DNA of 64,000 nucleotides. It comes from Closterium sp. NIES-65 (Eukaryota > Streptophyta > Zygnematophyceae > Desmidiales > Closteriaceae). Below the pieces are notes generated by a model. It saw nothing but the letters and a program-made list of their open reading frames with translations, was not told the DNA's origin and made no database searches. A program made the translations under genes and the position numbers. The DNA lies in NCBI GenBank assembly GCA_948144175.1, contig CANXME010002528.1:248001-312000 (forward strand). The letters run 5' to 3'. Shown here piece by piece: positions 34,690 through 63,785 of the stretch (positions are counted from its first letter, which is position 1; each line of letters opens with the position of its first letter).

Positions 34690-37195
34690 CATGCTCACAA
34701 GAAGATGGAGCAGTGAGCACCCACATGAAGAGGGAGCAGTGAGCACTCACGGAAAGAGGGAAAACTCATGCGAAGAGGGAGAGACAGACTGGCTCGTGCA
34801 CACATTCACTCATACACTCATGCACTCATGCACCCATGCACCCATGCTCTCATGCACTCGTGCACTCATGCACCCATGCACCCATGCTCCCATGCACTCG
34901 TGCACTCATGCACCCATGCACTCATGCGCCCATGAGCCCATGCACCCATGCACCCATGCGCCCATGAGCCCATGCGCCCATGCACCCATGCACCCACGCA
35001 CCCATCCACACATGCACGCACCCATGCACCCATGCACATGCACTCATGCACTCATGCACCCATGCACCCATGCACCCATGCACCCATGCACTCATGCACC
35101 CATGAACCCATGCACCCATGCACTCATGCACCCATGCACCCTTGCACACATGCACACACCCATGCACCCATGCACTCATGCACCCATGCACCCATGCACC
35201 CATGCACCCATGCTCTCATGCACTCGTGCACTCATGCACCCATGCACCCATGCTCTCATGCACTCGTGCACTCATGCACCCATGCATTCATGCGCCCATG
35301 AGCCCATGCACCCATGCACCCATGCGCCCATGAGCCCATGCGCCCATGCACCCATGCACCCACGCACCCATCCACACATGCACGCACCCATGCACCCATG
35401 CACATGCACTCATGCACTCATGCACCCATGCACCCGTGCACCCATGCACCCATGCACTCATGCACCCATGAACCCATGCACCCATGCACTCATGCACCCA
35501 TGCACCCTTGCACACATGCACACACCCATGCACCCATGCACTCATGCACCCATGCACCCATGCACCCATGCACCCATGCACCCATGCACCCATGCATCCA
35601 TGCACTCATGCACCCATGCACCCATGCACTCATGCACCCATGCACTCATGCACCCATGCACCCATGCACCCATGCACCCATGCACCCATGCAATCATGCA
35701 CGCATGCACTCATGCACCCATGCACTCATGCACCCATGCACTCATGCACCCATGCACCCATGCACTCATGCACCCATGCACCCATGCACCCATGCACACA
35801 TGCACGCACCCATGCACACATGCACGCACCCATGCACCCATGCACTCATGCACTCATGCACCCATGCACCCATGCACTCATGCACCCATGCACCCATGCA
35901 CCCATGCACCCATGCACTCATGCACCCATGCACCCATGCACACATGCACGCACCCATGCACCCATGCACTCATGCACTCATGCACCCATGCACCCATGCA
36001 CCCATGCACTCATGCACCCATGCACCCATGCACTCATGCACCCATGCACCCATGCACCCATGCACACATGCACGCACCCATGCACACATGCACGCACCCA
36101 TGCACCCATGCACTCATGCACCCATGCACCCATGCACCCATGCACCCATGCACTCATGCACCCATGCACCCATGCACTCATGCAATCATGCACCCATGCA
36201 CCCATGCACCCATGCACTCATGCACCCATGCACTCATGCACCCATGCACCCATGCACACATGCACGCACCCATGCACCCATGCACTCATGCACTCATGCA
36301 CCCATGCACCCATGCACCCATGCACTCATGCACCCATGCACTCATGCACCCATGCACCCATGCACTCATGCACCCATGCACTCATGCACCCATGCACCCA
36401 TGCATCCATGCACTCATGCACCCATGCACCCATGCACCCATGCACCCATGCACCCATGCACTCATGCACCCATGCACCCATGCACCCATGCACCCATGCA
36501 CCCATGCAATCATGCACGCATGCACTCATGCACCCATGCACTCATGCACCCATGCACTCATGCACCCATGCACCCATGCACTCATGCACCCATGCACCCA
36601 TGCACCCATGCACACATGCACGCACCCATGCACACATGCACGCACCCATGCACCCATGCACTCATGCACTCATGCACCCATGCACCCATGCACTCATGCA
36701 CCCATGCACCCATGCACCCATGCACCCATGCACTCATGCACCCATGCACCCATGCACTCATGCAATCATGCACCCATGCACCCATGCACCCATGCACTCA
36801 TGCACCCATGCACTCATGCACCCATGCACCCATGCACACATGCACGCACCCATGCACCCATGCACTCATGCACTCATGCACCCATGCACCCATGCACCCA
36901 TGCACTCATGCACCCATGCACTCATGCACCCATGCACCCATGCACTCATGCACCCATGCACTCATGCACCCATGCACCCATGCATCCATGCACTCATGCA
37001 CCCATGCACCCATGCACCCATGCATGCACCCATGCACTTATGCACCCATGCACCCATGCACTCATGCACCCATGCACCCATGCACCCATGCACCCATGCA
37101 CCCATGCACTCATGCACCCATGCACCCATGCACCCATGCACTCATGCACCCCTGCACTCATGCGCCAGGACGCATGCACTCATGTAAAGACAAGG
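34690..37195 (-). repeat. 8-bp CATGCACY satellite with higher-order blocks, Kir intron
   Basis: From about 34815 to 37185 the sequence is CATGCACC or CATGCACT units, about 295 copies, with rare CATGCACA, CATGAGCC and CATGCAAT variants. Since 3 units make 24 bp the plus frames stay open for almost 1000 codons (Cys-Thr-His-Ala-Pro-Met); no gene is inferred. Rare variants repeat at 366 bp (34926 and 35292) and 816 bp (35691 and 36507), showing block duplication. 34690-34815 holds looser donor-like repeats. Confidence 0.95.
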
Positions 37196-38342: not shown

Positions 38343-41300
38343 ATGGCTGGAATGGGGGTTTATGGGGCACGGCAGGCGGATGATAACCACAAGGGTGGGG
38401 GGGTTGGGGGCGGCGGACCCATGCCTCGGGAGGAGGTGGAGGCGGGGAAGGCGGAGGGATTGCGGAAGGCGTGGGGGGAGGCAGCAGGGGGGGTTGTAAC
38501 AGAATGGTTTAGCAATGCATTCATGGAAGAGTTGTCCGACCAAGTCATGAGGGAGAGTGAGGGTGGGAATGATATTTATGTAAAGGGGGGAGGGGAGGAG
38601 CATGTGGATGAGGCAGATGAGGAGGAGGAGGAGGAGGAGGAGGAGGAGGAGGAGGAGGAGGAGGAGGAGGAGGAGGAGGAGGAGGAGGAGGAGGAGGAGG
38701 AGGAGGAGGAGGAGGAGGAGGATAAGAAGGTGACAAACTCAGAGGAAGAGATGTACAATGCTGAGGATGATGAGGTTGAGGAGGATAGGGAAGAGGACTT
38801 TTCTGGAGTGGAAAATGAGGAAGAGGGGGCCACAAAAACACTACGAGGTCTACAACGGGCTACAAAGGCGGATGCGAAGGGGAAACGTGCTATGGCCGAC
38901 CAGGAACCTTCTAAGAAGCGTGGTGGCAGATTGAGGCGGGGTCGCGGTGGGGGAAAGGTTGGAAGAGCGGGTGGGAGAGCGCGTGGAGGAGGGGGACGAG
39001 TTGCAAAGAGGGGGGCTGGTGGGAACGGAGGCGTGGGTTGTTCTCAGTCACGTCCACCACCCAATGCTGCTCCTATCGCGCCTGCGGCTGTGGTTAAACC
39101 AAAGGCCGCCAAAAAGCCTAGAAAGTCCCGTTCAGCTGCAACACCATGTTTCGAGAATTTAGGCGCCAAGGACGAAAAACGTCATTGTCGCAAGTGCAGC
39201 AAGCTCATTTCGTTCGCGGGCAGTAACACATTGACTGGGGAGAACCACATGCTTGTCAAGCACAGGGCACACTGGGACATTTGGTTTATGAAATGGAATG
39301 CCGGTGAGATTCTAGAGGGTGAGGTGTTCCTTGAGGGTGGGTACGGAGGTCCCAATGAAGTACCCGATGGAAGAAATCCATGGCCTGGTTCAGAAACATG
39401 GCCTGCTCCCCCCTTCGACTTCGGGTCAGAGCGATCAGGGCAGCAGAGCATGACGAAGTACACTGCGCCGGGTGTGAACAAAGAGGTGCTGTGGCAGGCC
39501 ATAGTGGAGTTCTTCGTGGCGGCCGACCAGTCATTCTGCACCGTTGATCATCCGAGCGTAACTGCAACAGCAGACCCCTATCCCTTGAGATGTTGTTGTT
39601 GTGTGTGCAAAGATGTTCCCCTTCTCGTCCGCACATAAACCAGCCCAACTCCCTCCTTTTTCATCGTCAAAATGTTGCAGTTCCGCCGCATGATGAACGC
39701 GGCCAACTCGCAGTGTGGGGTTCAGGGGGTGATCCCAACGCGATACACGCTAGCGAGAGCCATCGTTGAGATGGCCAAGCTAGCAAGGGCGAAGGGCAAG
39801 GAGTTGTAACACGCCGAAGGGGTTGGGGCGGTGTCGCTGACATGCGACATATGGACGGGGGAGAACCATAGAGGGTATTTAGCGGTGACGGGGCATTGTG
39901 TGGATGCCAACTTTGAGCTCAAGCAGTACACGCTTGCGTTCATTGCTTTGCCATCAAAACACACGGCGAAGAAGATCGCTGAGCGGATTGAGGCAGTGTT
40001 GGTGGAATGGGGGCTAGAAGAGAGGACCATGGCGTTGACAACGGACAACGCCAGCTTGAACGTGGCGGCGATGGAGATCCTTATGCGCGAGGGCCCGGCG
40101 GAGATGCCCTGCTTGTTCAAGACCGGGATGCACATCCGGTATGACCCTTGCATCCGCTTGTGTTCATGCCTGGTCCCTCGTTCACCTGTTAGTGTAGACC
40201 CGGCACAAACAACACCGTACATCTGAGATACTCCCAACCAAAACCAAAACCACACCTCATCACCCAACAGGTGCCTTGCCCACGTTTTGAACTTGGCCAT
40301 TCAGTTGGCTTTGAAAAACGTGGATGAAATCAAGTTGCCACTCACCTTGCTCCGCGAGCTGGCGTCCTACATCGGCTATTCGCCACAAAGGACGACCCTC
40401 TTCGAGGCGGAGCAGGAGGTTTGGCGACCACGGAAGCAGTACATGCGCCTGCGGCAAGACAATGAAGTGCGCTGGGGTTCCACCCTGCAGATGATCTTGC
40501 GCGGGCTGGACCTGCGCGATCCAATTGAGTCCTACATTCGGCACACAGTTGTGAGCATACCCTCGCCCACCCGCCTTGCTAATTCAGCCGTGGGACGTGG
40601 GCTGGACTCTGATTTTTGGCCAACACAGTAGTACCCGCCCCCCAATCCTTGCCTCCCACTTGTACCCGCCCCCCAATCCTTGCCTCCCCCTTGTACCCGC
40701 CCCACTCGCCTTCACAGGCCAATGCTCCAATTGATGCGCCACCGCTGCGCCTCATGGCGCTGCGCATTTCTGCTGAGCAGTGGGACGCGCTTGAGGAACT
40801 TGCAAAGTTCCTCATGCCCTTCAACGTTGTAACTTTGGCAGCGGAGGGGTCCCTGTACCCGACTGCGAGCCGGGTGGTGCCGCAGTACAATGAGCTTATG
40901 GATTCGCTCGAGAAGATCAGGGACAGCACCACCTCCCCTCCCTCCGTGATCATGCGGAAGTGCATCGACGCTTCCTTGGGCAAGCTGCAGGAGTATTACT
41001 ACAGCAGCAGTGATGAGCTGTGTGTCGCTACCTTCTTGGACCCGGCATTCAAGCTCGGGTACTTTGAGCTCGAGGACGGGAGCAGCAACATGGGCAGGGC
41101 GGTATCTCACGTGCCCTCGGAGGAGGTACTGGCTCTTGTGCGTGCGAAGTGGCAGCCATACAAGGAGAAGGTGCGGCGCGAGCGAGAGGCGGGTACTGGG
41201 AAGGGAAGAGGGGAGTTGATGGTGGTGGGCTTGGGCGGGACTAGCAGCACAGCGGCTGGGGGGAGTGGCAGCTGCAGCGGGACGACTCGGGGGGGCCTGA

Positions 41301-41719
41301 ACCTGTTTGGGGGCCAGAATCATGATTCGGGAGGACGCGTGGCACGCCTGGCGGCGTTGCGTGCGAAGCAGGCAGCAGAGAACAAGGATGAAATCCAGAT
41401 TTACCTTGAGGAGCCCATGCAGCCCCTATCCACAAACCCCCTTGCATACTGGCGTCGTAGGGGTGATTTGGAGGGGCTGCAGGCTATGGCAAAGGACTAC
41501 TTGACCATTCCAGCCACCTCTGCTGCCAGTGAGAGGCTCTTCTCACAAGGCAGGAACCTCATCACATGGCAGCGGCACAGGTTGGGTGCTGAACGCGTGG
41601 AGGCATGCATGACCTTGAAGTTATGGATCGCTTCGTTCCCGGGCACCCCATTGGGAAAGGCCGCCAAGGTGGCCATGGTGGATGACAAAGTGGGAGTGGA
41701 CCTGGATGAGGAGTTGTGA
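38343..41719 (+). CDS. hAT-1 transposase (BED finger, hAT dimerisation domain; 3 introns)
   Basis: Exons 38343-39557, 39681-40138, 40271-40550, 40718-41719; introns of 123, 132 and 167 bp start GT, end AG, and all phases agree. Exon 1 has a Glu run (38619-38720), a basic Gly/Arg segment and a BED-type finger (HCRKCSKLISF then H-x4-H). Exon 2 has LTCDIWTG and LTTDNASLNV, with the first two catalytic Asp. Splicing exons 2 and 3 restores HIRCLAHVLNLA. Exon 4 carries the C-terminal hAT motif PATSAASERLFS. A TAA at 39807-39809 interrupts exon 2. An upstream open frame from the ATG at 38032 may be the true N-terminus, one base out of frame. Otherwise well preserved. Confidence 0.85.
39558..39680 (+). 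other. hAT-1 intron 1
   Basis: Donor AGC-GTAACT, acceptor GTTGCAG-TTC; phase 0. Confidence 0.7.
40139..40270 (+). other. hAT-1 intron 2
   Basis: Donor CCG-GTATGA, acceptor CAACAG-GTG; joining CG to G rebuilds Arg in HIRC. Confidence 0.85.
40551..40717 (+). other. hAT-1 intron 3, with a three-copy 30-bp repeat
   Basis: Donor GTT-GTGAGC, acceptor TTCACAG-GCC. The 3' half contains GTACCCGCCCC(CC)AATCC units in tandem (40630-40705), a pyrimidine-rich block before the acceptor. Confidence 0.8.
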
Positions 41720-47400: not shown

Positions 47401-49073
47401 CGTACCGTGCAAGTACTTTGAGTAGTAGACAGGCCTGGGTGTGGCATTGTGCACCTTGCGCCTCATGGGTCACGGCAACCAGTGGGTGTAGACGGAAGCG
47501 GTGAAGCTCGCGATAATCTGATTGCGCTCACAGTTGAGGGCAACAGCAAGGTGCAGGATCTGATCTGATCTGATGTATGCCGTGCTCGTGGAAGGCAGGC
47601 AGCTGTTCTTTACAGTGCATGAGGTGCTTGCTGCTGCTGCGTCTGCCACCATCAGGTTCTGCACAAGGGGCTGGACAGGCAGAAAGCACACAGAGTGCTC
47701 ATGGCAGTGTTAATGAGGTTTTCCCCCCCTGCCGGTCGCTGTGCCCTTGCCAGCAGCAGAGGCCGTGGGAGCACCAGTCGGCCTGTAGTCGACTGAAGCA
47801 GTGCTGGAGCTTTCAGCTGGGCTGGGGTGCCCCAAGCCTGTGTAGGCAGGGTGTGATCCCTTCGTTAGAAGGCGAATTTGAGGAGCGTCAGCGGCAGCAG
47901 CGAGAGTGGGGAGGCGGCATGTGGCGGCAGGTCTGGCCCTGCCAGTGCAGGTGATGCCAAGGGCGAATCTCGTGACTCGTCTGTGCCCCGCCAGTGCATG
48001 TTCCTCTGCGCCGTGTCCTTCATGGTCACCCGCAAGCTGCCCCGCTCCGCTTCCTCCACCCTGCCCTTCCCCATGCCTCGCATCCTCCCGTCCATGCATG
48101 CTCATGTCACGTCTCGATCCAGTGGCACTCCTATGGGATTGCTTCGCTGCAGAATAGCCACATCTTTGCATCCCGCGTTTCCTCCCACCTAGATGCATCG
48201 TTGACTCGCTTTTCACATATCCATCCCCTCATCGCCTTTCATAAAACCTTTCGCTTTCTCCCAACAGCTCAATCGTGGCTGTGCCACTTCTCCCCGATCA
48301 CGTCTCTCCCTTTCCCTGCCCTTTACCAATTGCAGCCCTTCGCGCATGCCCTTCGCTTGATCTCTTGCAGACATCGTGTTCAAGTACAATGGGGCAGCTG
48401 TTCTCAAGCATTTCAATGCGTTGTGGCGACACACAACAACTTTAGAGGAGAGTTGGACGAGCTGTTGGATCACTGCAGCACACACTGAATCAATTTCATC
48501 CTGCAAGTCTATATCCTGCATGCCACTCGAATTCATCCCTCTAGCTCCAGCGGATCAGCTCCTCTTCCTGTGTTGCCCTGCTGCCCTTTACAGCAGCCTG
48601 CTAGAGGTGGACCGCCTCAGATGGTGTGAGAAATAAGTGCTGAGGGGGTGGATATGATTGTGAGGAGGGAGGGAGACAATCACTTCAAGTGCACAGCAGC
48701 ATGCACCACATCTGCCCTGATCTCGTGCTCAAACAGTTCCGCGTGCTTCATCTCCGCCCCACACCACTCCACCCGCCCGCCCCTTCATCTCAGCCAGCAG
48801 AACATTCTCAAGCAAGTCACCATGTGTGGTTTTGGTGTATACAGAAGAAGCCACTTGTCTCTTTAGATTTCAGTACAATTTCGCTGTCTTGTTTGATGGA
48901 TAACATTGGGGCATCACCTCACCGTGAATCAGCATTATCAGTCATGCATCTCTGTGTCAATCAAGCATATAATAATCAGCATTATTATAGCACTAGCCAC
49001 GTATTTATCAGTCTGGTAATAATCTGATGACCATTAAATGAAGCGTGAGTGCCATGCAAGCTTCTCACACAAC
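44481..49073. other. Unassigned region with short exon-like pieces and minisatellites
   Basis: No complete gene is recognised. A plus-strand stretch at 46011-46134 has acceptor GTGACAG, a clean frame (VVLVKGLPIAHNQMIGAGQ) and donor GTGAGT, so it may be an exon. Other exon-like pieces lie near 46710-46820 and 48371-48470. Tandem repeats: 45562-45668 (20-bp GCATCAAGCTCATCTGGCCT, about five copies) and 47052-47276 (12-bp GGAGGAGGTGGC type). G-runs occur at 42765-42800 and 47037-47050. Confidence 0.35.
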
Positions 49074-49205
49074 TGTCAAACTATATATGTGTTAGTTTTG
49101 TGTGGGCTATAGTGGGGTAGCCCATATGGGGTACAACCCTAAGTTAGGGTTAGTACTTGTACCCACATTTCATTCAATGCAACATTCCTATTTGCTATCT
49201 TGACA
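49074..49205 (+). repeat. Cop-A5 5' LTR
   Basis: 132 bp, TGTCAAACTATA to ATCTTGACA, carrying the family boxes TAGTGGGGTAG and ATATGGGGTAC. Confidence 0.85.
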
Positions 49206-49217
49206 TGGTTTCAGAGC
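49206..49217 (+). promoter_or_regulatory. Cop-A5 primer-binding site
   Basis: TGGTTTCAGAGC, one mismatch to TGGTATCAGAGC, with no spacer after the LTR. The following GGGCCCACCA is also found after the PBS of A2 and A3. Confidence 0.85.
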
Positions 49218-49589: not shown

Positions 49590-49594
49590 GCCCC
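49590..49594. repeat. TRIM-1 target duplication GCCCC (left)
   Basis: Repeated at 49970-49974. Confidence 0.9.
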
Positions 49595-49735
49595 TGTCAG
49601 AATCCCAACCACTAGACCATTGGGATAAAAGGGCTTGTTTCAGTAGCGGGTCAGTGCGCCCATAACCCCCCAGGCGAACGCGCCTGTAACCCTCTCCAGG
49701 ATCAATCGGGCATCCACAGTGCAGATCTACTGACA
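49595..49735 (-). repeat. TRIM-1 3' LTR
   Basis: 141 bp; on the minus strand begins TGTCAGTAGATC and ends GGATTCTGACA. Confidence 0.93.
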
Positions 49736-49788
49736 CCCCCCCACACTGGGAGGTCCAGGACTAAGCACAGCGGCAACGGCCTACATGT

Positions 49789-49860
49789 GCATACACCGGG
49801 GATCGAACCCGAGACCGCTCTGATACCATGTCAGAATCCCAACCACTAGACCATTGGGAT
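49789..49860 (-). ncRNA. tRNA-like sequence across TRIM-1 LTR end and PBS
   Basis: Minus-strand D-arm TGGTCTAGTGGTTGGGATT (49835-49853) differs by one base from the tRNA-Glu type; anticodon arm TCTGA-CATGGTA-TCAGA (49819-49835) has a perfect 5-bp stem and 7-nt loop; variable region GCGGTC; T-arm TCGGG-TTCGATC-CCCGG (49796-49812). A box TGGTCTAGTGG and B box GGTTCGATCCC fit Pol III consensus. The acceptor stem does not pair and position 33 is A, so it is tRNA-derived rather than a working tRNA. The LTR/PBS border falls inside the anticodon loop. Confidence 0.7.
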
Positions 49861-49969
49861 AAAAGGGCTTGTTTCAGTAGCGGGTCAGTGCGCCCATAAC
49901 CCCCCAGGCGAACGCGCCTGTAACCCTCTCCAGGATCAATCGGGCATCCACAGTGCAGATCTACTGACC
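49829..49969 (-). repeat. TRIM-1 5' LTR
   Basis: Same as the 3' LTR except C instead of A at 49969. Confidence 0.93.
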
Positions 49970-50868
49970 GCCCCATGTGAGGTACATCACTCACGCGCCC
50001 GTGAGTGACGTAATACCGACAAAGGACACCACTTACGTGCTGTACATCACAGCTGTCAACCACGCCAACGCAGCCAACTCAATGAGACGGTGCAGCCACG
50101 CGCACCGCACAGTGCACAGCATGTGTCTGCCATTGGCCAGAATGGTCTGTAGACAGCATGCGGTGGCAGCCAAGGAGTCCGTGAATGAATCCGGCCTTGA
50201 ATGCAAGGACGAATTCATCTAGGAATGTTGCCATCAAGTCCGTGGAATCGCGGCGCGGTGGTTTCGTGCTCCCGCCATCTCCAACCTCCCCTTCCCTCCC
50301 CATACCAGCAGCCAACGTTCCTTTGTTCACTAGTGTGTTATTTCCATTACGTGCCTTCATTGTCCCAATTTTCTCTCGTTCAGTTTAGCCACCAATGGAG
50401 GCCATGCCGGCCGACGAAGCTGCTCCGGACACTGGCCCCGACGAGCCGCCTGTAAGAGCGAAAACAACAGCGCCGTCCCATCCGGAGAAAGCTTCGGATG
50501 CTCCCCGCTCTGGGCTAGATTTTATTAGATCTACGGCTGCTCCCGTCACACCTGAACCGCCTAGGTCTACCGTTCACGATTCTGCCCTTGTAGTAACCCC
50601 TACTCCTACTGCTTCTCCTACTCCCGTCCCGTTCACTCTCCCTCCGGCTGTTGCTGGCTGCAGCAAAAATCCTCCACCGCCCTCGCCCAGTCTTACTCCA
50701 AGCACGGTGCGGGTGTCCGTTGGCCCGCCGTCGGCTACTTCCACTCCCAAGCGTGCGCGATCTGGAAAGTGGGCGCAGAGTACTGTGCTGGTGGGAGGCC
50801 GCCGTATTCCACCGCCGGAAAAGCCCGATGAGCCTGCACAGGAAGGAGCTGAGCTGCCGGAAGAAGGT

Positions 50869-50873
50869 GACAT
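50869..50873. repeat. Cop-A4 target duplication GACAT (left)
   Basis: Repeated at 52446-52450; both lie in the hAT-2 coding frame (Gly-Asp-Ile). Confidence 0.93.
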
Positions 50874-51003
50874 TGTCCGAATATTATCTTATTGTTCTAG
50901 CCTGTAATGGGGTGCTCTATAGCGAGTACAGCCCTTCTAGGGTTTGCTATTTGTATCCTCATTCTTGCTAGTTCAATCCTCTTTCTTCCTTCAAACTTTG
51001 ACA
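50874..51003 (+). repeat. Cop-A4 5' LTR
   Basis: TGTCCGAATATT to AACTTTGACA, 130 bp. Confidence 0.95.
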
Positions 51004-51015
51004 TGGTATCAGAGC
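51004..51015 (+). promoter_or_regulatory. Cop-A4 primer-binding site
   Basis: Exact TGGTATCAGAGC, complementary to the plant initiator-Met tRNA 3' end. Confidence 0.9.
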
Positions 51016-51079
51016 AGGTCGATCCCCTTGGATCGATCCTGTGGGTGTGTTCCCACCTCGCTTCCGCTGCTACTTTTTC

Positions 51080-51603
51080 CTCCCACCGTGCGCCCCGAGG
51101 CGCGCGGCGGTTTTCTTCCCGCCGTGCGCCCCGAGGCGCGCGGCGGTTTTCTGCCCGCCGTGCGCCCCGAGGCGCGCGGCGGTTTTCTGCCCGCCGTGTG
51201 CCCCGAGGCGCGCGGCGGTTCTCTGCCCGCTGTGCGCCCCGAGGCGCGCGGCGGGCGTCTGCCTCGCGGCGTTCGCCGCGTCCCGCTCTGGAGGCGTCGC
51301 GACGGGCGACGGGGACCCGTCGCGGCCCCGCCGCCCCACTCCGGTCGCGGCCCCGCCACCTTCGGTCGCGGCCCCGCCACCTTCGGTCGCGGCCCCGCCA
51401 CAGACCCGTCGCGGCCCCGCCACCTCCGGTCGCGGCCCTGCCGCCTCACGTCGCGGCCCAGCCGCCTTCGGTCGCGGCCCCGCCAACTCCGGTCGCGGCC
51501 CCGCCAACTCCGGTCGCGGCCCCGCCAACTCCGGTCGCAGCCCCACCACCGACCCGTCGCGGCCCCGCCACCGACCCGTCGCGGCCCCGCCGCCCCACTT
51601 CGC

Positions 51604-51636
<33 letters not shown>

Positions 51637-51660
51637 TCCCCCCCCCCCCCATTTCCCGTC
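51080..51660 (+). repeat. Cop-A4 C-rich tandem-repeat leader
   Basis: First block (51085-51265): about five 36-bp units with GCGCCCCGAGGCGCGCGGCG. Second block (51330-51605): GGTCGCGGCCCCGCCA-type units of 16-21 bp. A C-run with few breaks fills 51608-51650. Confidence 0.9.
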
Positions 51661-52315
51661 GTCCGTCGTGGCGACCTGAGGGGGCCGCTGTGGGGTGGCG
51701 GGTATGGGGGTGACCGGTGTACTTTCCTCCCTTTGCTCCTCCTCCTCCTTCGTCTCCCACTGCTGCAGCTGTCGCTGAGGGGGGTGGTTGTGTGGGAGAC
51801 TGGGGTTTAGGGTTTAAGGGGGGTGCGTGGGAGTAGAGCTAGCGGTGTAGCAGTGGGTGTGTATCAGGGGGGTGGGACTGTGTGCGGGAGGATGAGCGGA
51901 GGTTGCCAGTTTGTCGTCAGCAGCACCTGTAGTCCGGGGCGCTGTCCCGGTAGCCCAGTGAGCTAGACTTCTACGCCAGCCGCCCGTGGGTCCGTTGCCC
52001 GTCTGCCGCTACTTGAGCCGCGGGGCCTGTTACTCCTGTAGTCCGGGCGCTGTCCGGTAGCTGCTGTGCCAGTCTGCCTCCTGTTGCCCGTGTGTCTGCA
52101 GCTTCAGCCGTCGCCTCCTATCTCCTCTCCCCTCACTCTCCCTCCTCCTCCTCACTTGCCCGTTGTGACTACCACTAGCTTTGCTTATAATTGTGAACTC
52201 TAAACTATTTCTTCTTGAACTTGTGCTCAGAATGTGTGGTGACATTGTGATCCACCCTGAGCTTGTATTGCTTTGCCTGCTCTGCTGATTACACCCCACT
52301 TTGGCTATGGGGGTG

Positions 52316-52445
52316 TGTCAGAATATTATCTTATTGTTCTAGCCTGTAGTGGGGTGCTCTATAGCGAGTACAACCCTTCTAGGGTTTGCTATTTGTATCC
52401 TCATTCTTGCTAGTTCAATCCTCTTTCTTCCTTCAAACTTTGACA
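52316..52445 (+). repeat. Cop-A4 3' LTR
   Basis: TGTCAGAATATT to AACTTTGACA, 130 bp. Confidence 0.95.
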
Positions 52446-55354
52446 GACATCCCGCTGCGCGCGGATACCGGCTCGCCGGCACTCACCAAGACGCAGCCGC
52501 GAGAGCAGATGTACCTGGAGGCGAGTATTAATTACGAGACGAAGTGGGCTGGATACTTTTCCTGGCTTGTGTTTGGGAAAACCAAGGACGGTTTCCCGTA
52601 CGTGAAGTGCAGCGTCTGCATGTCGTACGGTAAAGGGAACACGAGGTACGCCATGCATGGAGACGACGGAGGCCGTGACTTGCGACCCAGGCGTTCCGGG
52701 CGCACGAGCATACGGAGGCACACATGGCGGCGGTCGACCGCCAGATGAAGATTGCGGCGGGAATCCGCGAGGGTCAGCAGGTGATTTCGGACTTCATCAA
52801 CTCCGACGTCGAGGGCCGCCGCGCGATACGGCTGATGCGGTCGACTCAGTTCCTGTGCCAGTGCGACGCGCCGATAAGCATGTTTCCTAAGCTGATGCGG
52901 CATCTTGCGGAGCAGGACACGCCAGACATTCCCCGGCAGTCATACGGCGTTTATCTCACGCGGTTAGTGACGGTTCAAATTGCTTGCAAATTTAAACATG
53001 CACGTCAAACAACTTGCTTGACTATCGTGTACTGATAATTTCTCTGTCCTTTGTTGCAGCTACGGCTTCCAGCAGATGGTCCACAGCATGAGCACTTACC
53101 TCACCCGGGTGCAGATGGACCACGTCTTAGCATCACCGTTCCTTGGCATCCAGTGCGACGAGAGCACTGACCGCACGCGAGGGAAACACATGATTGTGTA
53201 CCTTACATATCTGAAGAACCGCCAAGTTGCATGCGAGTTTTTCACTTTGCTGACGGTCGAGCGGTGTGATGCAGGGTCCTTGTTTGAGGTGCTGCTGAAC
53301 CATCTTCGCTCCGCTGCCGTCGATGTGTCCAAGATCGTCGGCATCAGCACGGACGGGGCGTCGGTCATGACCGGGAGAGAGAACGGATTGGTGGCGCGTC
53401 TACGTGAACACGTCCCTCATCTGTTCTCATGCCACTGCATCGCCCATCGGTATGTGAGTTGATCAATATTGTAGCATGTTATCTACGATGATTGGTTTAC
53501 TAACAAACCATAATATTTGTTCCCTGCTTTACACAGTGAGGCGTTGGCTGTGAAGGACGCCGCTGAGTCAAACCCGGATCTCGACATGGTCGACAAGGTG
53601 GTGCGCACTGTGGCGACTCTGCTCGGAAACTCCAGCGTGTGGAGTCAGCGGTTCAAGTACCTGCAGCGTGTGATTTACAAGACCAACCTGGAAGTCCAAG
53701 GCATACACACGGTGCGGTGGCTGTCTCGAGGAGATGCGGTGGCCAGGCTGTGCAAGGTCCTCGGCGCTTGCATCGTTCTGCTCTGGGAGCACAATCACAA
53801 GGCGTACGAGATTGTCACGTGCTACAAGTTTCAGTTCTGCTTGTTTTTCTTGGCCGACATCTTGGCGGACATGAACGACCTCAACCGCTGCTTCCAGAGA
53901 CGAGAGGTGAGGTCGCATGTTTGTATGATGTTGCTACGTGAGGTTCGTAACTGCACTGTTGCTCATCCTTCTCCCTCTTGTCTACCCCTGCTCTGCCACA
54001 GCTGGACGTGACAGAGATTGCAAAGATGATCGAGTCCAAAACGAGTGACCTGGTGGAGCGCTACTTGACGCCAGAGAAAGCTTTCGGGGGCGAAGGGAAG
54101 AGCTGGCTGGTGACATTCCTCAAAGTCCACAAGGAGGGTGGAGGCAAGCAGGTCCGGGTGCGCGGCGTGGACGGTGCTGGGCGCCCGATCAACCACCTGT
54201 ACACCATGCATGAGCGGAAGCCGAAGGGGCACAAACACGGAAGCACCTACGTAGACTGCGTGAAGCTGTGCCGCAAATTCGCCCGTGACTGCGTGGACAA
54301 CCTCACCAACCGACTGGATGACCTTGGGAAGCTGGGGCCGACGAAGCTGCTCCGGGCGGGCAAGTGGCCGAAGATCAAGGCCCAGCGAGAGAAGAAGTGT
54401 AAGGAGTGGCTGAACGGGTGCAGCAAGTTGTTCCGCAACAAGCTGCCGGGATTTGACATCAAAGCAGCAGAGAGGGAGCTTCCAACCTTCTGCGCGATCA
54501 TGGAGGCACACCATGAGATGGAGAGCTTCACCCAGGGCCTGTCCAACTTCCTTGGGAGCGCAGACTCCAAGAGGTAGCCTTTACTTTGCGTCCATGGGTT
54601 TTACAATCTTGTTGATTGCTAGCTAATTCCGTTGTGGTGTGTGTACGCATGTGCCTGGCAGGAGATGGCCCAACCTCATCCTGCTGTGGCAGGCGCTGGC
54701 TGTGCTCCCTCTCTCCACCGTGGAGTGCGAGAGGGGGTTCTCCAGGCAGAACGTCATCAAGTCCTGGGTGCGAGGAGCGCTGTGCAACGCGCGTCTGGGG
54801 GAGCTGATGCAGATATCGCTCCTCAAGTATGAGATTGACTGGCCGGAGGCACTGGAGGTGTGGAGGTCCCTGCGTACTAGGCGCCCTTCGAAGAGCTTGA
54901 AGCTGGCTGTAGCAGAGAGGGAGAGGAAAGGGAAGCAAAAGGAGGGTGAAGATGTGGCTGCTCGAAATGCCCGGGAGAATGAGGATGAGGAGGAGGAGGA
55001 GGACGATGAAGTGGAACAGGCCTTTGACGACGATCAAGAGATTGTGGGGGAGGAGGAAGTGGAGGACAATCCATTCCTATCGGACGATGAGGATGTGGAG
55101 GAGGTGTACTTCATAGACAAGCCCGTGCACTAGACTAGATAGAGTAGGAAACTGCATGCACTTGTCTTATTTAGGAAAATAGTGCATTGTTAATAGCAAC
55201 CCTGTTTTTGAGCTGTGAACCCTGTCCGGTCAGGGTTGGACTTCGTGTGACACTGAGCTATCAGGGTAGCTACCTTGCGAAAAATGTGCCCTCATAATAG
55301 GGGGTCAAATTTTTTACTGGAATCAGGGAGTCTTAAAACGAAACGTCAGCCCTG

Positions 55355-55862: not shown

Positions 55863-57787
55863 TGCTGCTGCCCTATTGTGGTCGCGCGCCGCCCTGCTGC
55901 TCTTACTGCTGCTGCCGCTACTCCTGCTACTGCCTTCACTCCATACTACCCTAGAGGTCGCGCTCCTCCTAGCTTGCCCGCCATGACTTCCCTTTGTCGT
56001 ACCGGTGGGAGTGGTGACGGCGGTGGTGGCAGCAGTGGGAGTGGTGGCGGCCGTAGTAGCGGTCACTGTGGCGCTGTTGGGTGCGGAGTGTCTGGCGGTG
56101 GCCAGATGCAGCTACGGCGGCGTCCGACCCTTACACCCCGGCAGCTTCGTGAGTGGCTTTACCAGCGTGGGCCGTCTCCGAGTCCGGGTCGCTGCCCGTA
56201 CGTCATTCGCACAGGTCGTCGAGCTGGTGAGACCTGTGGGACACCTGGACGCGCACAGTCCCGCTGCTTCGCCTATTTGAGTGACGCCTGTCGCACAGAG
56301 TTTGGCGACGAGGCTGAGATCCCACCCTGGCTTGAGTTGCTTAGGTCGGGCGTTGCTGTATTTGCTTTAGACTATGACGCCATCCTTACTGCCATGTCTG
56401 CTTTGCCTGGTGGTGCTGAGCGTGACTGTCACCTGTGCGTGCAGTACGACCCCGGTATAGAGGTTGCTGCTCAAGGTGCTAGTGAGGCTTCTGCCTTAGG
56501 TGCTAGCGAGTCTGCTTCCTCAGGTACTGCGCCTGCTGAGGCCTTGCACACCTTCACGCTTGACTCAGGTGCTTCCCGCTGTTTTTTTCGTGACGATACT
56601 GCACTCACACCACTCACTGCACCTGTTGCAGTCTCTCTGGCTGACCCCTCAGGGGGCACAGTTCTTGCACGGTCCACCACTGTGCTTCCATGCCCGGCGG
56701 TTCCGTCTGGCTCACTGACAGGCTTCCACCTCCCCTCGTTCTCTATGAATTTGGTGAGCAACGCAGTTCTCCAGGACCAGTGGGTTGACACCTTTACCCT
56801 TGGAGGATAGCGTGTGGGGATCTGTACGTGCTCCCGGACCGGCCGCCACCTGGCCACATTTACTCGTCGGCCAGGGTCGAGTCTTTACACGCTGACGACT
56901 GCGCCTCCTCAGGTAGCTGCTACTAGTTAGGTGCCTGCGTCAGTTCAGGTAGCCTCCCCTTGTGAGTGTCGCTCCCTGTCGCACCAGACTCTTCTCTGGC
57001 ACCAACGTCTGGGTCACCCCTCCTTGCCACGTCTACGTGGCATGCACCGTCGCCTCCTTGTATCTGGTCTTCCCAGGTCTCTCCCTCCCCTCCCTGCCTC
57101 GCCTGCGCCGCCCTGCCTTCCTTGCTGCCTTCCTCGGCAGTGCGCCGCTCCTCACTCCTCGTTTCCTTCGACAGAGGCTCCTCTGCAAACCCTCCACCTG
57201 GACGTGTGGGGCCCAGGCCGCGTTCGTGGACAGGGCGGTGAGCAGTACTTTCTGCTGGTTGTCGACGACTACTCGCGGTACACCACGGTCTTCCCCTTGC
57301 GCACCAAGGGTGAGGTCCCTACTGTCCTGATCCCTTGGATCCAAGCAGTTCGTCTCCGGCTCCGTTGCAGGTTCTGCCAGAACCTTCTTGTCCTGCGTCT
57401 GCACTCTGACAGAGGTGGTGAGTTCACGTCCGACCTCTTGCGGGCCTTCCGTCAGGGGGAGGGCATCGAGCAGTCGTTCACGCTTGCGGGCTCACCACAG
57501 CAAAATGGGGTTGCTGAGCGCCGCATTGGCTTAGTCATGGAGGTCGCTCGTACCTCCTTGATTCATGCGGCGGCTCCCCATTTTCTGTGGCCGTTTGGGT
57601 CCGGTTGCCGCGCAGCAGCTCAACCTCTGGCCCCGTGTCTCCTTACCGGAGACCTCGCCCACACTGCGTTGGACGGGGGATTGGCGATGCGTCGCGTTTC
57701 CGGGTCTGAGGTGCTCGTGCCCTTGTCCGTGATACGTCTGCGGACAAGCTCTCCTCCTGCACCACCCCCTGTGTCTTCCTTGGCTTG
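55863..57787 (+). pseudogene. Cop-A5 gag C-end, protease, integrase
   Basis: The gag N-terminal core (VLTFDAEG in A2/A3) is absent; the open frame begins in the Gly/Ser-rich tail. The Cys/His module follows at 56190-56275 (CPYVIRTGRRAGETC, then C-F-A-Y-L-S-D-A-C; the His is missing). Protease LHTFTLDSGASRCFF is near 56550. Stops occur at 56807 and 56926. Pre-integrase LLWHQRLGHPSLPRL starts near 56995, integrase HLDVWGPGR, LHSDRGGEFTS, QNGVAERRIG. Homology ends near FLGL (57787), where Gyp-2 begins. Confidence 0.85.
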
Positions 57788-57804
57788 GAGAGGAGCTTTT
57801 CTCC

Positions 57805-60800
57805 ATGCAGCCTAGGCCAGCTGGTTGTCCAGGAGCAAACAGTGGAACCACGGTGTGTACTGAATATTGGGATGTACCCTATGATCCTATTAATGAGACT
57901 ATTTTTGGGTACTCCGAGCAACGCTCACCACTCCTGCTCGAGGTGATCTGCAATGGACAGCGCCTCCAAGCACTCGTGGACAGCGGGGCGTCGCACAGCG
58001 TCTATGACAAAAAGGCAATCGATCGACTCGGAGGTGAAATCAAGTCCTCAAGCTTCTCTGCAACGATGGTGGATGGCAGTAAGCTACCTATCTACGGGGA
58101 AACACGGTTACTACTCCAGATTGGACCCCTTCGATGGAAGCCTGCTCTCCCCGTCACAAATATCAAAGGACTCGACGTAATCTTCGGGAGAGACTTTCTT
58201 AAAAAGTTCAACCCCGAGATCAAGTGGGTTAACTGGACGGCCATCATCAACAACAACGGGAGGAAAATCAGCCTTCCCAAATGGGACGACACGGGAAATA
58301 TTCCAGTCGAGACACTCGCACGCTTTGAAAAGGACGTCAAACGGACCACGGCGGGATTCATGGCGATAGTCAACGAAGCAGACAACGGAGAGAAGCAGAC
58401 CCAGGAACTTCCTCCAGCAATTAAGAAAATTCTTGAAGAGTTCCAGGACGTTCTCCCCGACGATTTACCTGATCAACTACCGCCATACCGAACACATCAA
58501 CACGAGATCGTAGAAGAGCCGGGGTCCAAGCCAACGTTCCGAGCACCATACCGGCTGAGCCCGACAGAGCTTCCCGATATGAAAAAACAAATAGAGTATC
58601 TCCTGGAGAAAGGGCTGATTCGACCATCGACTTCGCCGTACGGAGCTCCAGTTCTCTTCACTCCGAAGCCAGACGAAAGTCTGCGAATGTGCATCGACTA
58701 CCGAGTCTTGAACAAGCAGACTGTAAAAAATAAATACCCGATACCACGGATCGACGACTTACTCGATCAACTTCGCGGTGCTACGGTATTCTCCAAGCTC
58801 GACCTCAGATCGGGATACTGGCAAATTCGTATGGCGGACAACTCTATCCACAAAACCGCCTTTCGAACTCGGTATGGGTCATACGAGTATCTCGTGATGC
58901 CGTTCGGACTCACTAACGCACCAGCCACATTTCAGGCGGAAATGAACCACATTCTTCGGCCCCTTCTGGACGAGTGCGTGGTGGTATATTTGGACGATAT
59001 CATGATCTACTCGAAAGACATGAAGAAGCACGTTGAGCATCTGCGACGGGTGTTTGAAATTCTTCGACGAGAACGCTTCTACGTGAAACTATCCAAGAGC
59101 GAGTTTGCGTTGGAAAAAGTCCAGTTCCTTGGACATATGGTGAGCGCTCAAGGAGTTCACGTGGATCCTAAGAAGATCGAAGCAGTGCAAACGTGGAAGA
59201 CCCCTGAGAACGTGAAGGAGTTACAACAGTTCCTTGGATTCGCCAACTACTACAACCGGTTCGTACCGAACTACGCCAAGATTGCCGCACCATTAACGAA
59301 CCTGTTGAAGAAGAATACACCATATCAATGGGAGGCGAAGCACCAGGAAGCCGTGGAACAACTTAAAACCGCACTCACGTCCGCACCTGTCCTTATCCTG
59401 CCAGACCCTGAACTTGACTATGTCATCGAGGCCGATGCTAGCGATCAAGCAGTGGGCGCAGTACTCATGCAGGATCAAGGGAAGGGACTGCAACCCATTG
59501 CATACCTCAGTAAAAAACTTCACGGGGCAGAACTCAATTACCCCATCCATGACAAAGAGGCCCTCGCCATCGTCAACGCATTTAAGGCATGGAGGTGTTA
59601 TCTCGAAGGAAGAAAAACGACTGTCAACACCGACTACTACAGCCTCAAGTATCTGAAGACCCAACCAACACTCTCCAGGCGGCAGGTCCGGTGGATTGAC
59701 TTTCTCGAAACCCACTTCCATTACGACATAGTGTATAAGCCGGGGCACAAGAACAAGGCAGACGCACTCAGTCGCCCTGCACACGTTGCCGCCCTACAAG
59801 TCGATGGCATGAACCCACTTTTGAAGGGACTCTTCACGCATGGATACACCATCGACCCCGAAGTCTCTGTAGCAGGAAAGCGCCATCTTCTACATTGGGA
59901 TCAAGACATCGCATACCGCAAGGGATCCACAAAAATATGGGTACCTAATTACCCTCCTTTACGCCAGTTACTGCTCGAAGAATATCATGATGTTCTCTAC
60001 GCGGGCCACTTTGGTAGTAACAAGACGCTTGCCGGTATTGCGAAGCATTATTATTGGCCCCACATGGCGGATGACGTACAAAAATTCGTCACCTCGTGCG
60101 ACACATGCCAACGAATGAAGAGCAGCAAACAGAAGAAAGCAGGGTTACTACAGCCTCTTCCAGTCCCTGACCAGCCTTGGCAAGTGGTTAGCCTCGACTT
60201 CATCACCGGGTTACCACCTACCAAAGCTGGTTACGACGCCATTCTAGTCGTCATCGACAAATTCTCCAAAATGGGACACTTCATTCCGACACACACAACG
60301 GCTCGCACCGAGGAGACAGCGCAATTATTCTTCCGCTACGTCATCTCGCAACATGGCATTCCAACCACGCTGATCTCCGACAGAGACCCGAAATTCACGA
60401 GTAAATTCTGGAAGGAGCTCATGTCGCTCATGGGAACCAAACTCGCCATGTCATCAGCCTATCATCCCCAAACGGATGGTCAGACAGAGCGCCTCAACCA
60501 GATTGTCGAACAGCTTCTGCGAGCAGCGTGTAAGGGCGATATCTATAAATGGGATGCACACCTGACGGTTCTCGAGTTTGCGTATAACAACGCCACGCAC
60601 GCCGCAACAGGGCAAACTCCTTTCTTCCTCTGTTACGGTCGCAACCCACTCACGCCTCAGAAACCAACAGTACCCGCCACGGTGCAACCCGCACATGACT
60701 TCATTACCACTATGCACCAATTGTGGGAGCGCACGCATAAACGTCTTCTGACTATCCAGCAGCAACAAAAGAAGCTCGCTGATCGGAGTCGCAACGATCA

Positions 60801-61059
60801 TTCCATCAAGATTGGTGATCAAGTGCTTCTGGATACACGCAATCTCGACATTAGCCATCTTCCGTCTAAGCTCCGACCTCGCTTCTGCGGACCTTTTCTC
60901 GTCGAGGCGCAGGTCACTCCAGTAACCTTCCGCTTGCGTTTACCGGCTACCTGGAGAATTCACAATGCCTTCCATGTTCAACTTCTCAAGCCCTATCGGG
61001 ACCCAAAACACGGTCTTCAAAGGTCGCCAGCCGCCGCCGCCACTGCCAGTGATCGTTAA
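57805..61059 (+). CDS. Gyp-2 pol: protease, RT, RNase H, integrase (1084 codons)
   Basis: One uninterrupted frame. Protease [12 protein letters not shown] (about residues 57-68), then [13 protein letters not shown] from about residue 230 with [40 protein letters not shown] and YLDDIMIYS (about 395). RNase H begins [16 protein letters not shown] and ends KNKADALSR. Integrase: zinc domain ([20 protein letters not shown]), core Asp in [19 protein letters not shown] and Glu in [10 protein letters not shown], then a GPY/F-like end ([11 protein letters not shown]). All catalytic residues named are present. The ATG at 57805 is merely the first in frame; the true N-terminus (gag) is missing. Confidence 0.92.
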
Positions 61060-61670: not shown

Positions 61671-63785
61671 GAGGTGCTGTTGCTGGAGTCGCTGGAGCTG
61701 GAGGTTCTGGAGCTGCTGGAGGCGCTGGAGCTGGAGGTGCTGCTGCTGGAGTCACTAGAGCTGGAGGTGCTGCTGCTGGAGATGCTGGAGCTGGAGGTTC
61801 TGGAGCTGGTGGTGGTGCTGGAGCTGCTGGTGCTGATGGCGTTGCGCAGCCATGACTATTCTTTGCTCCGTCGTCTCCGTCGTCTCCACCACCGCCTGAC
61901 TCCGTGGTTCACCAGGTTTTTAGCCTCCCGTCGTCTACCGGTCTTCCGTTACAACCTGGCTCACCGCTACCTGCTCCTTCTCCTTACACTGAGCAACCAG
62001 GAGGTCTTGTTGAGCGTCGTGAGCCTGCGTCGCGTCCTATCTCGCCTATCCGCACTGGTCATCATGTTCCTCGTCCGCGTCCGCCGGCTGTCCCCGGAAC
62101 ACACCTCATGGCTCTGCGTCCGTCCTCTGCTCCGCAGTGTGTTCCTCTGCCGTCTCCTCCTGCGTCTTCTCTTCCTGTCGTTGCTGACCCTGAGTCCGAC
62201 CGGTTTCGTACTGAGCACCCTACTGTCATGCGTCTCCTAGCCACTGTTGTCATTGACCCGTCGTTTGAGTCTACTGCTGCATCTGCCTTAGTCGCTGAGC
62301 TTGTTGACTTTGCTGCTGCCTGTCGTCTAGACTACGCCGCTAGTCTTGTTCCTGAGTCTGAGTCGGCCTGTCCTCCATCCGTCGCGGGTGAGTGTGCTCT
62401 TGGCACAGACGTCCTTGAGGACAGGCAAGAGGACCTTGAGTGTCTTGCAGCCGCTGCGCCTCATCTCGTGGCCATGCTACTTGCCCCTGTGGGAGACCCT
62501 GATGCTCCAGACATCCCGACCCCGCGCTCTTACGCTAAGGCGATCGCGGGTGAGTACTCCTCTCATTGGCAGACAGCCATGGATGCAGAGATGGCATCTT
62601 GGAAGTCCACAGGCACTTACGTTGACGAGGTTCCCCCTCCTTGGGCGAACATCGTCGATGGCATGTCGATTTTCGGGGTGAAGCGGTCGCCAGGTTCTCC
62701 GCCTGTCTTCAAGGCTCGTTACGTTGCTCGAGGCTTCAGTCAGCGAGAGGGAGTTGACTTCTTCCATACCTTCTCCCCCACCCCGACGATGACCACTCTT
62801 CGGGTGCTGCTGCACGTTGCCGCTCAGCGTGACTACGAGCTTCACTCTCTTGACTTCAGCACATCCTTCCTACAGGGCAGCCTGCACGAGGAGATCTGGC
62901 TGCGCCGCCCACCTGGCTTCACTGGGTCGTTTCCTCCTGGTACCTAGTGGAGCCTCCGTCGACTAGTCTACGGTCTCCGCCAGGCGCCACGTGAGTGGCA
63001 CGACACACTGAGGACGACACTTGCGGCTCTTGGGTTTGCACCTTCCACTGCTGACCCGTCGCTGTTTCTGCGCACCGACACTTTGCTGCCGCCGTTCTAC
63101 ATCCTCGTATACGTTGACGACTTGGTCTTTGCCACTGATGACACTGAGGCCCTTGCCCTGCTGAAGTCGGAGCTGTAGAAGAGACACACGTGCACAGACC
63201 TGGGTGAGCTGCGCAGTTGCCTTGGCTTGTAGATCACCCGGGACAGAGCACGCCGCACCATCACACTGACTCAGTCACACATGGTGCAGCAGGTCCTTCA
63301 GCGCTTCAACTTCACCTGGTCCTCGGCACAGGCCACTCCTCTGGCTACAGGTCACTCGCTCTCAGCTCCATCTTCGGACGTGTCCGTAGAGCCCAGTGGT
63401 CCTTACCCAGAGCTAGTGGGCTGCCTCATGTACCTGATGACCTGCACTCGTCCTGACCTAGCGTACCCTCTTGGCCTTCTAGCTCGCTACGTGGCTCCTG
63501 GTAGGCACCGAAAGGTGCACATGGATGTTGCTAAGAGGGTACTGTGCTACTTGTGCAGTACATCGGGCATGGCGCTGGTGCTTGGAGGACGGGGCGACGT
63601 TGTCCTCACTGGGCACTCGGACGCTTCTTGGGTTGACAGCCTGGCTACGCAGCGGTCGTCACAGGGTTATACCTGCAGTCTTGGCTCTGGCTCTGTTTCT
63701 TGGCGGTCTACACGCTCGTCTTCTATTCTCAGCTCCAGTTGTGAGGCTGAGATCTACGCAACAGCCATGGCTGCACAGGAGTTAC
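61671..63785 (+). pseudogene. Cop-A5 linker, RT and RNase H
   Basis: Gly/Ala linker (GAGGSGAAGG-type) to 61855, a Pro/Ser-rich segment, then RT from about 62500 (HWQTAMDAEMASWKSTGTY, GVKRSPGSPP), YVDDLVFA near 63110 intact, and RNase H (GHSDASWVDS, CEAEIYA, MAAQEL). TAG stops occur at 62945, near 63177 and near 63229, at Gln/Trp positions in sister copies. RNase H ends at GAGTTAC (63785), where the Cop-A6 LTR starts. Confidence 0.88.
63781..63785. repeat. Predicted Cop-A6 target duplication GTTAC (left copy)
   Basis: The five bases before the LTR start at 63786; the partner copy would lie beyond the window. Confidence 0.6.

Follow-up and report, generated by a model that had tools for sequence, protein, structure and literature searches.

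A Copia-associated TRIM of Closterium with a predicted Pol III promoter divided between LTR and leader

A 64-kb window (the whole stretch of DNA from the desmid alga Closterium sp. NIES-65 that was analyzed, 64,000 nucleotides, positions 248,001-312,000 of its contig) contains one copy of a 375-bp TRIM on its minus strand. Its sequence and that of its relatives point to a recently active, Copia-moved element that is probably transcribed by Pol III from a type 2 promoter split across the LTR/PBS boundary. The A box lies within the last 25 bp of the LTR. The B box belongs to the internal leader and is 8 bp beyond the PBS and 20 bp outside the LTR.

The complete structure given in the preliminary description (141-bp LTRs with one difference, PBS, PPT and GCCCC duplication) was confirmed from the sequence. 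The element has all the marks of a TRIM: a length below 1 kb, two LTRs, a PBS, a PPT and no genes for movement. The longest stop-to-stop frame through it is 105 aa with flank included, and the element ends are TGTCAG...CTGACA. The sole mismatch between the LTRs is the first base of the 5' LTR, where the odd G is common only to the window copy and L026 in a set of 40 copies. The features, all on the minus strand except the unstranded duplication, are:

49590-49594 and 49970-49974, no strand: target-site duplication GCCCC (sequence)
49829-49969, minus: 5' LTR, 141 bp, 99% identity to the 3' LTR (one difference)
49869-49871, minus: CAA in the 5' LTR, where Pol III is predicted to start, 16-18 bp ahead of the A box
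49861-49864, minus: TTTT in the 5' LTR, just past the predicted start (sequence)
49836-49860, minus: hairpin ATCCCAA/TTGGGAT competing with the D arm (lowest-energy fold)
49843-49853, minus: A box TGGTCTAGTGG at the LTR end (consensus match)
49817-49828, minus: PBS TGGTATCAGAGC, tRNA-iMet type, directly after the LTR and between the A and B boxes (sequence)
49799-49809, minus: B box GGTTCGATCCC, beyond the LTR in the internal leader (matches the consensus, 44 bp from the A box)
49795-49854, minus: stretch aligned by the Rfam tRNA model (13.3 bits, below the gathering score of 29)
49736-49747, minus: polypurine-rich tract (G-rich PPT) ahead of the 3' LTR (sequence)
49595-49735, minus: 3' LTR, 141 bp, with an A box and no B box behind it (sequence)
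49627-49630, minus: TTTT in the 3' LTR, predicted Pol III terminator
23792-24970, minus: Copia reverse transcriptase frame elsewhere in the window, at most 90% identity to predicted Closterium sp. proteins

In element numbering (1 = 49969), the CAA occupies positions 99-101, TTTT 106-109, the A box 117-127 and the PBS 142-153, directly after the LTR end at 141; the B box occupies 161-171. A 13-bp inverted repeat with a 4-bp loop (49983-50012) adjoins the insertion site. Another gene-poor LTR element in the window is complete as well (50874-52445, within 50869-52450). Its 130-bp LTRs are 97.7% identical, and it has an exact PBS TGGTATCAGAGC, GACAT on either side and no A or B box at its junction. 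Elsewhere, about 300 copies of the 8-bp unit TGCACCCA (34797-37163) produce a spurious 1022-aa open frame.

An 874-Mb assembly of 2400 contigs was searched for further copies, and 40 of 100 candidates were scored. At least 40 near-complete copies (94-100%) and one short copy were among the matches listed, and 39 other loci plus the window copy make up the copy set (n = 40). Exact 5-bp duplications flank 28 of the 40 copies and comprise 20 distinct sequences; the recurring ones are probably haplotype or segmental copies. The LTR pairs of these 28 copies are identical in two cases and carry 1-10 differences in 25, and the 17 differences in the remaining copy (L039) arise from a one-base shift of the cut. 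A protein search with the frame through the TRIM matched seven predicted proteins of Closterium sp. NIES-53 and NIES-54, which hold pieces of the family. Exact-pattern scans of genome-contig and viral-contig collections and a distant plasmid search gave no copies, as expected for an algal element. It is very improbable that the family is a tRNA-derived SINE or SINE array merely resembling an LTR element. A tRNA-like head, short length and tandem arrays would suit a SINE. Against this, the family has TGTCAG...CTGACA ends, a PBS and a PPT, 20 distinct sequences among its exact 5-bp duplications, 0-10 differences between the LTRs in 27 of 28 copies, and joins to Copia at the PBS. These marks of an LTR element refute SINE-type movement; they concern how the element moves and not where its boxes originated.

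The two boxes agree exactly with the A-box and B-box consensus, and the 44 bp from A start to B start is the spacing found in tRNA genes. The good A and B boxes noted earlier are thus borne out as consensus matches at tRNA spacing. Together, the two strands of the window contain 55 A-box matches and one B-box match, and the only A+B pair at a spacing of 30-70 bp is the TRIM junction, compared with 0.025 pairs expected per window from 200 dinucleotide shuffles. This scarcity argues against an ordinary Pol II Copia-type TRIM whose boxes are a functionless tRNA-Glu-like or SINE remnant or a chance occurrence, an alternative that we consider possible if rather doubtful. The LTR segment GGTCTAGTGGTTGGGATTC, which contains the A box and its flank, is identical at 18/19 positions to a tRNA-Glu 19-mer given in the available text of PMC10879880 and not taken from the host itself. 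Of 18,457 candidates in a genome tRNA search, 63 were scored matches.

Variation among 60 type-1 units was used to examine the promoter elements. The three CAA bases are kept in 55, 59 and 60 of the 60 units. Within the B box, 22/180 cells vary at the three degenerate positions versus 5/420 at the seven fixed ones, and the last C accounts for four more changes. Counted over entire blocks, variation is 3.1% for the A box and 4.7% for the B box, compared with 5.7% for the 5' U3 and 3.5% for the remaining internal sequence. Because most copies are young, the type-1 boxes do not clearly exceed the adjoining sequence in block conservation. This unremarkable block conservation is compatible with a Pol II element whose young copies have the boxes in common by descent.

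A sister family (type 2) was retrieved with an L050-derived query, which gave 1772 first-look candidates, of which 40 were scored and 30 loci were used. Type 2 has a 138-bp LTR and a 69-bp internal part, and 14 of 35 extracted units have exact duplications. Its LTR matches that of type 1 in 46/61 columns over positions 1-60, 32/33 over 61-93 and 10/12 over 94-105; from TTTT through the A box to the LTR end the match is 36/36, despite the diverged U3. The B core matches at 7/9 positions with both differences at degenerate positions, and positions 184-222 match at only 7/39. Across 32 type-2 units the 9-bp B core has 0/288 variant cells and the PBS varies by 0.26%, compared with 9.4% for the 11 bp between them. 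The retention of the fixed B-core positions across diverged subfamilies counts against functionless boxes. The LTR end common to both families could be a product of inter-family recombination.

The preliminary description saw a full tRNA-like fold where U5 meets the PBS, made of a tRNA-Glu-like D arm, anticodon arm and T arm. The TCTGA/TCAGA pairing is present and spans the LTR/PBS boundary; the tRNA-like molecule itself is not confirmed. When the suggested tRNA covariance search was run with the Rfam model, the junction scored 13.3 bits, short of the gathering score of 29, and it did so only in a search limited to 181 bases. The same model matched no tRNA in 2.4 kb at E up to 10, nor in the whole window at E up to 5. 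ARAGORN at its default settings found no tRNA at the junction. With relaxed settings it reported the site, but also 58 further sites in the window and 26 of 1000 shuffled versions of the junction. A tRNA gene is characterized by an acceptor stem and a score above a curated cut-off; no acceptor stem was seen in the junction sequence, and its score is below that cut-off. Identity as a tRNA was rejected on these sub-threshold scores and on hits that become similarly common elsewhere when the settings are relaxed. The lowest-energy RNA fold instead uses the ATCCCAA/TTGGGAT hairpin, with a z of -0.39 that is no better than shuffles. The ordinary junction at 51004 (TTTGA/TCAGA) forms five pairs, one of them G-U, so most of the anticodon-like stem comes free with an LTR end and a PBS.

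Compensatory changes in the arms, also proposed as a check, amounted to one T-stem cell among 92 units (60 type 1 and 32 type 2). There were no two-sided changes to another standard pair in the D or anticodon stems of these units. The T-stem change is at pair 161-171 of L041, from G-C to A-T, among the 60 type-1 units, and the 32 type-2 units have none. Two-sided changes in the competing hairpin number one among the type-1 and two among the type-2 units, and each affects the loop-closing pair. In type 2, T-stem pair 159-173 forms in 7/32 units, 158-174 in 21/32, 161-171 in 26/32 and the other two in 32/32. Most sister units thus lack pair 159-173 despite an invariant B core. As an alternative reading, the junction RNA could act as a tRNA mimic independently of transcription, recruiting, for instance, tRNA-binding factors for priming or packaging. 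The boundary-spanning TCTGA/TCAGA, the D-arm-like and T-arm-like segments and the weak tRNA model match are in keeping with this idea, which the different lowest-energy fold, the near absence of two-sided changes, the loss of pair 159-173 and the nearly equal pairing at 51004 make highly unlikely.

Control DNA surrounding the TRIM copies (300,767 bases in 95 records, including the window) was used to compare the junction with other PBS sites. The A box is present in 61 and the B core in 65 of its 70 unique TRIM junctions. Another 26 PBS-like sites had at most one mismatch, and removal of L064 (a TRIM missed by the filter) and three chimeras left 22. For none of the 22, some of which are near-duplicates, do the 45 bp upstream contain an A box or the 45 bp downstream a B core, and 19 stand after CA, as LTR ends do.

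The chimeras connect the TRIM to Copia elements. L077 (with its identical copy L079) and L078 consist of a Copia-type LTR, PBS, TRIM internal part, TRIM LTR, PBS and Copia-type leader, with two different Copia LTRs in the two cases. L049 has a 132-bp Copia-type LTR joined at the PBS to a TRIM internal part and 3' LTR, and its flanks GAAAC/CAAAC agree at 4/5 positions. These joins lie exactly at the shared PBS, as would be expected if cDNA strands were transferred between Copia and the TRIM. We infer that TRIM RNA was copied together with Copia. Handling of the TRIM by Copia machinery is equally what an ordinary Pol II element would show, and most TRIMs are taken as Pol II elements in the available text of PMC10853983.

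The window is rich in Copia and Gypsy genes. Closterium sp. NIES-53, -54, -64, -65, Naga37s-1 and Yama58-4 are among the sources of the best 120 of 7945 matches to the Copia reverse transcriptase. A Copia-type LTR end followed by a one-mismatch PBS TGGTTTCAGAGC (49073-49217) lies about 400 bp from the TRIM. A Gypsy-type pol open frame of 1108 aa with reverse transcriptase, RNase H, integrase and protease domains (57733-61059) is apparently nested between Copia-type pieces at 56931-57815 and 61856-62947. The C-terminal dimerization domain of a hAT transposase is found at 40613-41719.

Several copies are LTR-internal-LTR-internal-LTR arrays. In four dimers of 611-614 bp the exact duplications all differ (ATGAT, GTCTT, CCTGA and TGAAC) and the middle unit is of one kind, so the dimer has moved as a unit. 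A five-LTR array has GGTAT on either side, flanks that could have come about through later unequal exchange. In the middle LTR common to the dimers, TTTT is changed to TTCT and the last G of the A box to A. Among 40 chains, 38/40 first, 7/17 internal and 39/40 last LTRs have an intact A box, and 40/40, 11/17 and 35/40, respectively, an intact TTTT. This count includes near-identical haplotype copies, and the "last" LTR of L061 is really an internal LTR that an insertion has cut off. When each change in nine array loci is counted once, 5/54 of those in internal LTRs disrupt TTTT or the A box, versus 1/84 in terminal LTRs (Fisher p = 0.034, uncorrected for relatedness). Most of the middle-LTR losses belong to a single lineage, and both motifs persist in the internal LTRs of L057 and L058. 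L057 and L058 each contain two TRIM units split by the same foreign stretch of about 52 bp, at two genome places with similar flanks. The concentration of A-box and TTTT losses in internal LTRs speaks against a Pol II element with idle boxes. It is suggestive only, and would fit a transcript that starts in the first LTR and does not stop in the middle one.

The earlier proposal of a Pol III-driven or tRNA-mimicking element therefore divides into two halves. The Pol III half survives at the sequence level because the boxes occur in two subfamilies, are absent at the 22 control sites and are broken mainly in internal LTRs; the tRNA-mimic half falls. In the proposed mechanism, TFIIIC would bridge both boxes of the 5' LTR and leader, and Pol III would start near the CAA, about 16-18 bp upstream of the A box. 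Plant tRNA genes commonly start at a CAA a short way upstream, according to the available text of PMC11700998. Pol III would then read the PBS, leader and PPT into the 3' LTR and stop at TTTT, giving a predicted RNA of about 245 nt (element positions of about 100 to 343) with an R region of about 10 nt. A tRNA-iMet would prime this RNA at the PBS, and copying would take place in Copia particles. With the B box lying beyond the LTR, the promoter is whole only in the 5' LTR plus leader; no B box follows the 3' LTR or a solo LTR, and both of these would be silent. Whether the promoter is assembled only at the LTR/leader joint, so that the full-length element would be the sole transcribable form and dimers would be mobile through loss of the middle terminator and A box, we judge to be evenly balanced. 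Two further observations count against Pol III transcription: the 5' LTR has a TTTT about 6 bp after the predicted start, and 5/40 last LTRs are without TTTT. The 230-nt core contains no TTT other than in the TTTTs of the two LTRs. This T-run depletion was set aside as weak support for Pol III, since 22% of dinucleotide shuffles lack TTT too.

With its recent copies, its sister family and mobile dimers in which the middle LTR is altered, the family provides a system for testing Pol III control of LTR retroelements directly, and a split promoter would suggest how such an element avoids transcription from its own 3' LTR. Literature searches, with few subscription journals covered, found no publication that describes Closterium TRIMs or a promoter divided between LTR and leader. 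Ordinary plant and algal TRIMs are alike in size, lack of genes and PBS type, and Pol III boxes are not reported for them in the available text of PMC4717578, where the survey table names Chlamydomonas, Volvox and Selaginella and Closterium is not among the entries noted. Cassandra, to which the preliminary description likened the element, is a fair analogy, being a TRIM with a Pol III promoter, a PBS TGGTATCAGAGC and a transcript ending in the 3' LTR (PMC7215508, PMC10853983, as far as their accessible text goes) and forming tandem arrays (PMC7215508, same extent). It differs in having a 5S-type promoter wholly within the LTR (accessible portions of PMC7215508 and PMC10853983). The Cassandra 5S box A and box C motifs are absent from both strands of the element and the L050 composite, and Rfam gives no 5S match in the 64-kb window. 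Its R region is 18 bp according to the introduction of Kojima (2024), and it is the only validated Pol III-driven TRIM lineage, Helenus and Ajax being proposed ones (PMC10886601, in the parts available, as for all statements on Helenus below).

The closer described kind is Helenus/TRIMp3 (PMC10886601). Helenus comprises TRIMs with a tRNA-like sequence in the LTR that are grouped with Cassandra and Ajax as TRIMp3; its duplications in plants and fungi are of 5 bp, its likely helper in fungi is Copia, and the available Table 1 has no algal host (PMC10886601). The Closterium TRIM resembles Helenus as a short, gene-less LTR element with a PBS, PPT, 5-bp duplications and tRNA-like A and B boxes whose RNA is not a functional tRNA, and Helenus-1_SMo of Selaginella is similar in size by its published description (LTR 120, internal 85; PMC10886601). 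The A and B boxes at tRNA spacing and the tRNA-Glu-like A segment likewise accord with TRIMp3. Unlike Helenus, in which both boxes are inside the LTR, the Closterium TRIM keeps only the A-box half there and has the B box in the leader with the PBS between. It falls outside the Helenus definition because half of the tRNA-like sequence is outside the LTR. The best reading of these sequences is that the Closterium TRIM would work like TRIMp3, a known class that has been little tested, and that its split layout appears to be new. If so, an algal relative of land plants would add a further architecture, the split tRNA-type promoter, to the Pol III TRIMs.
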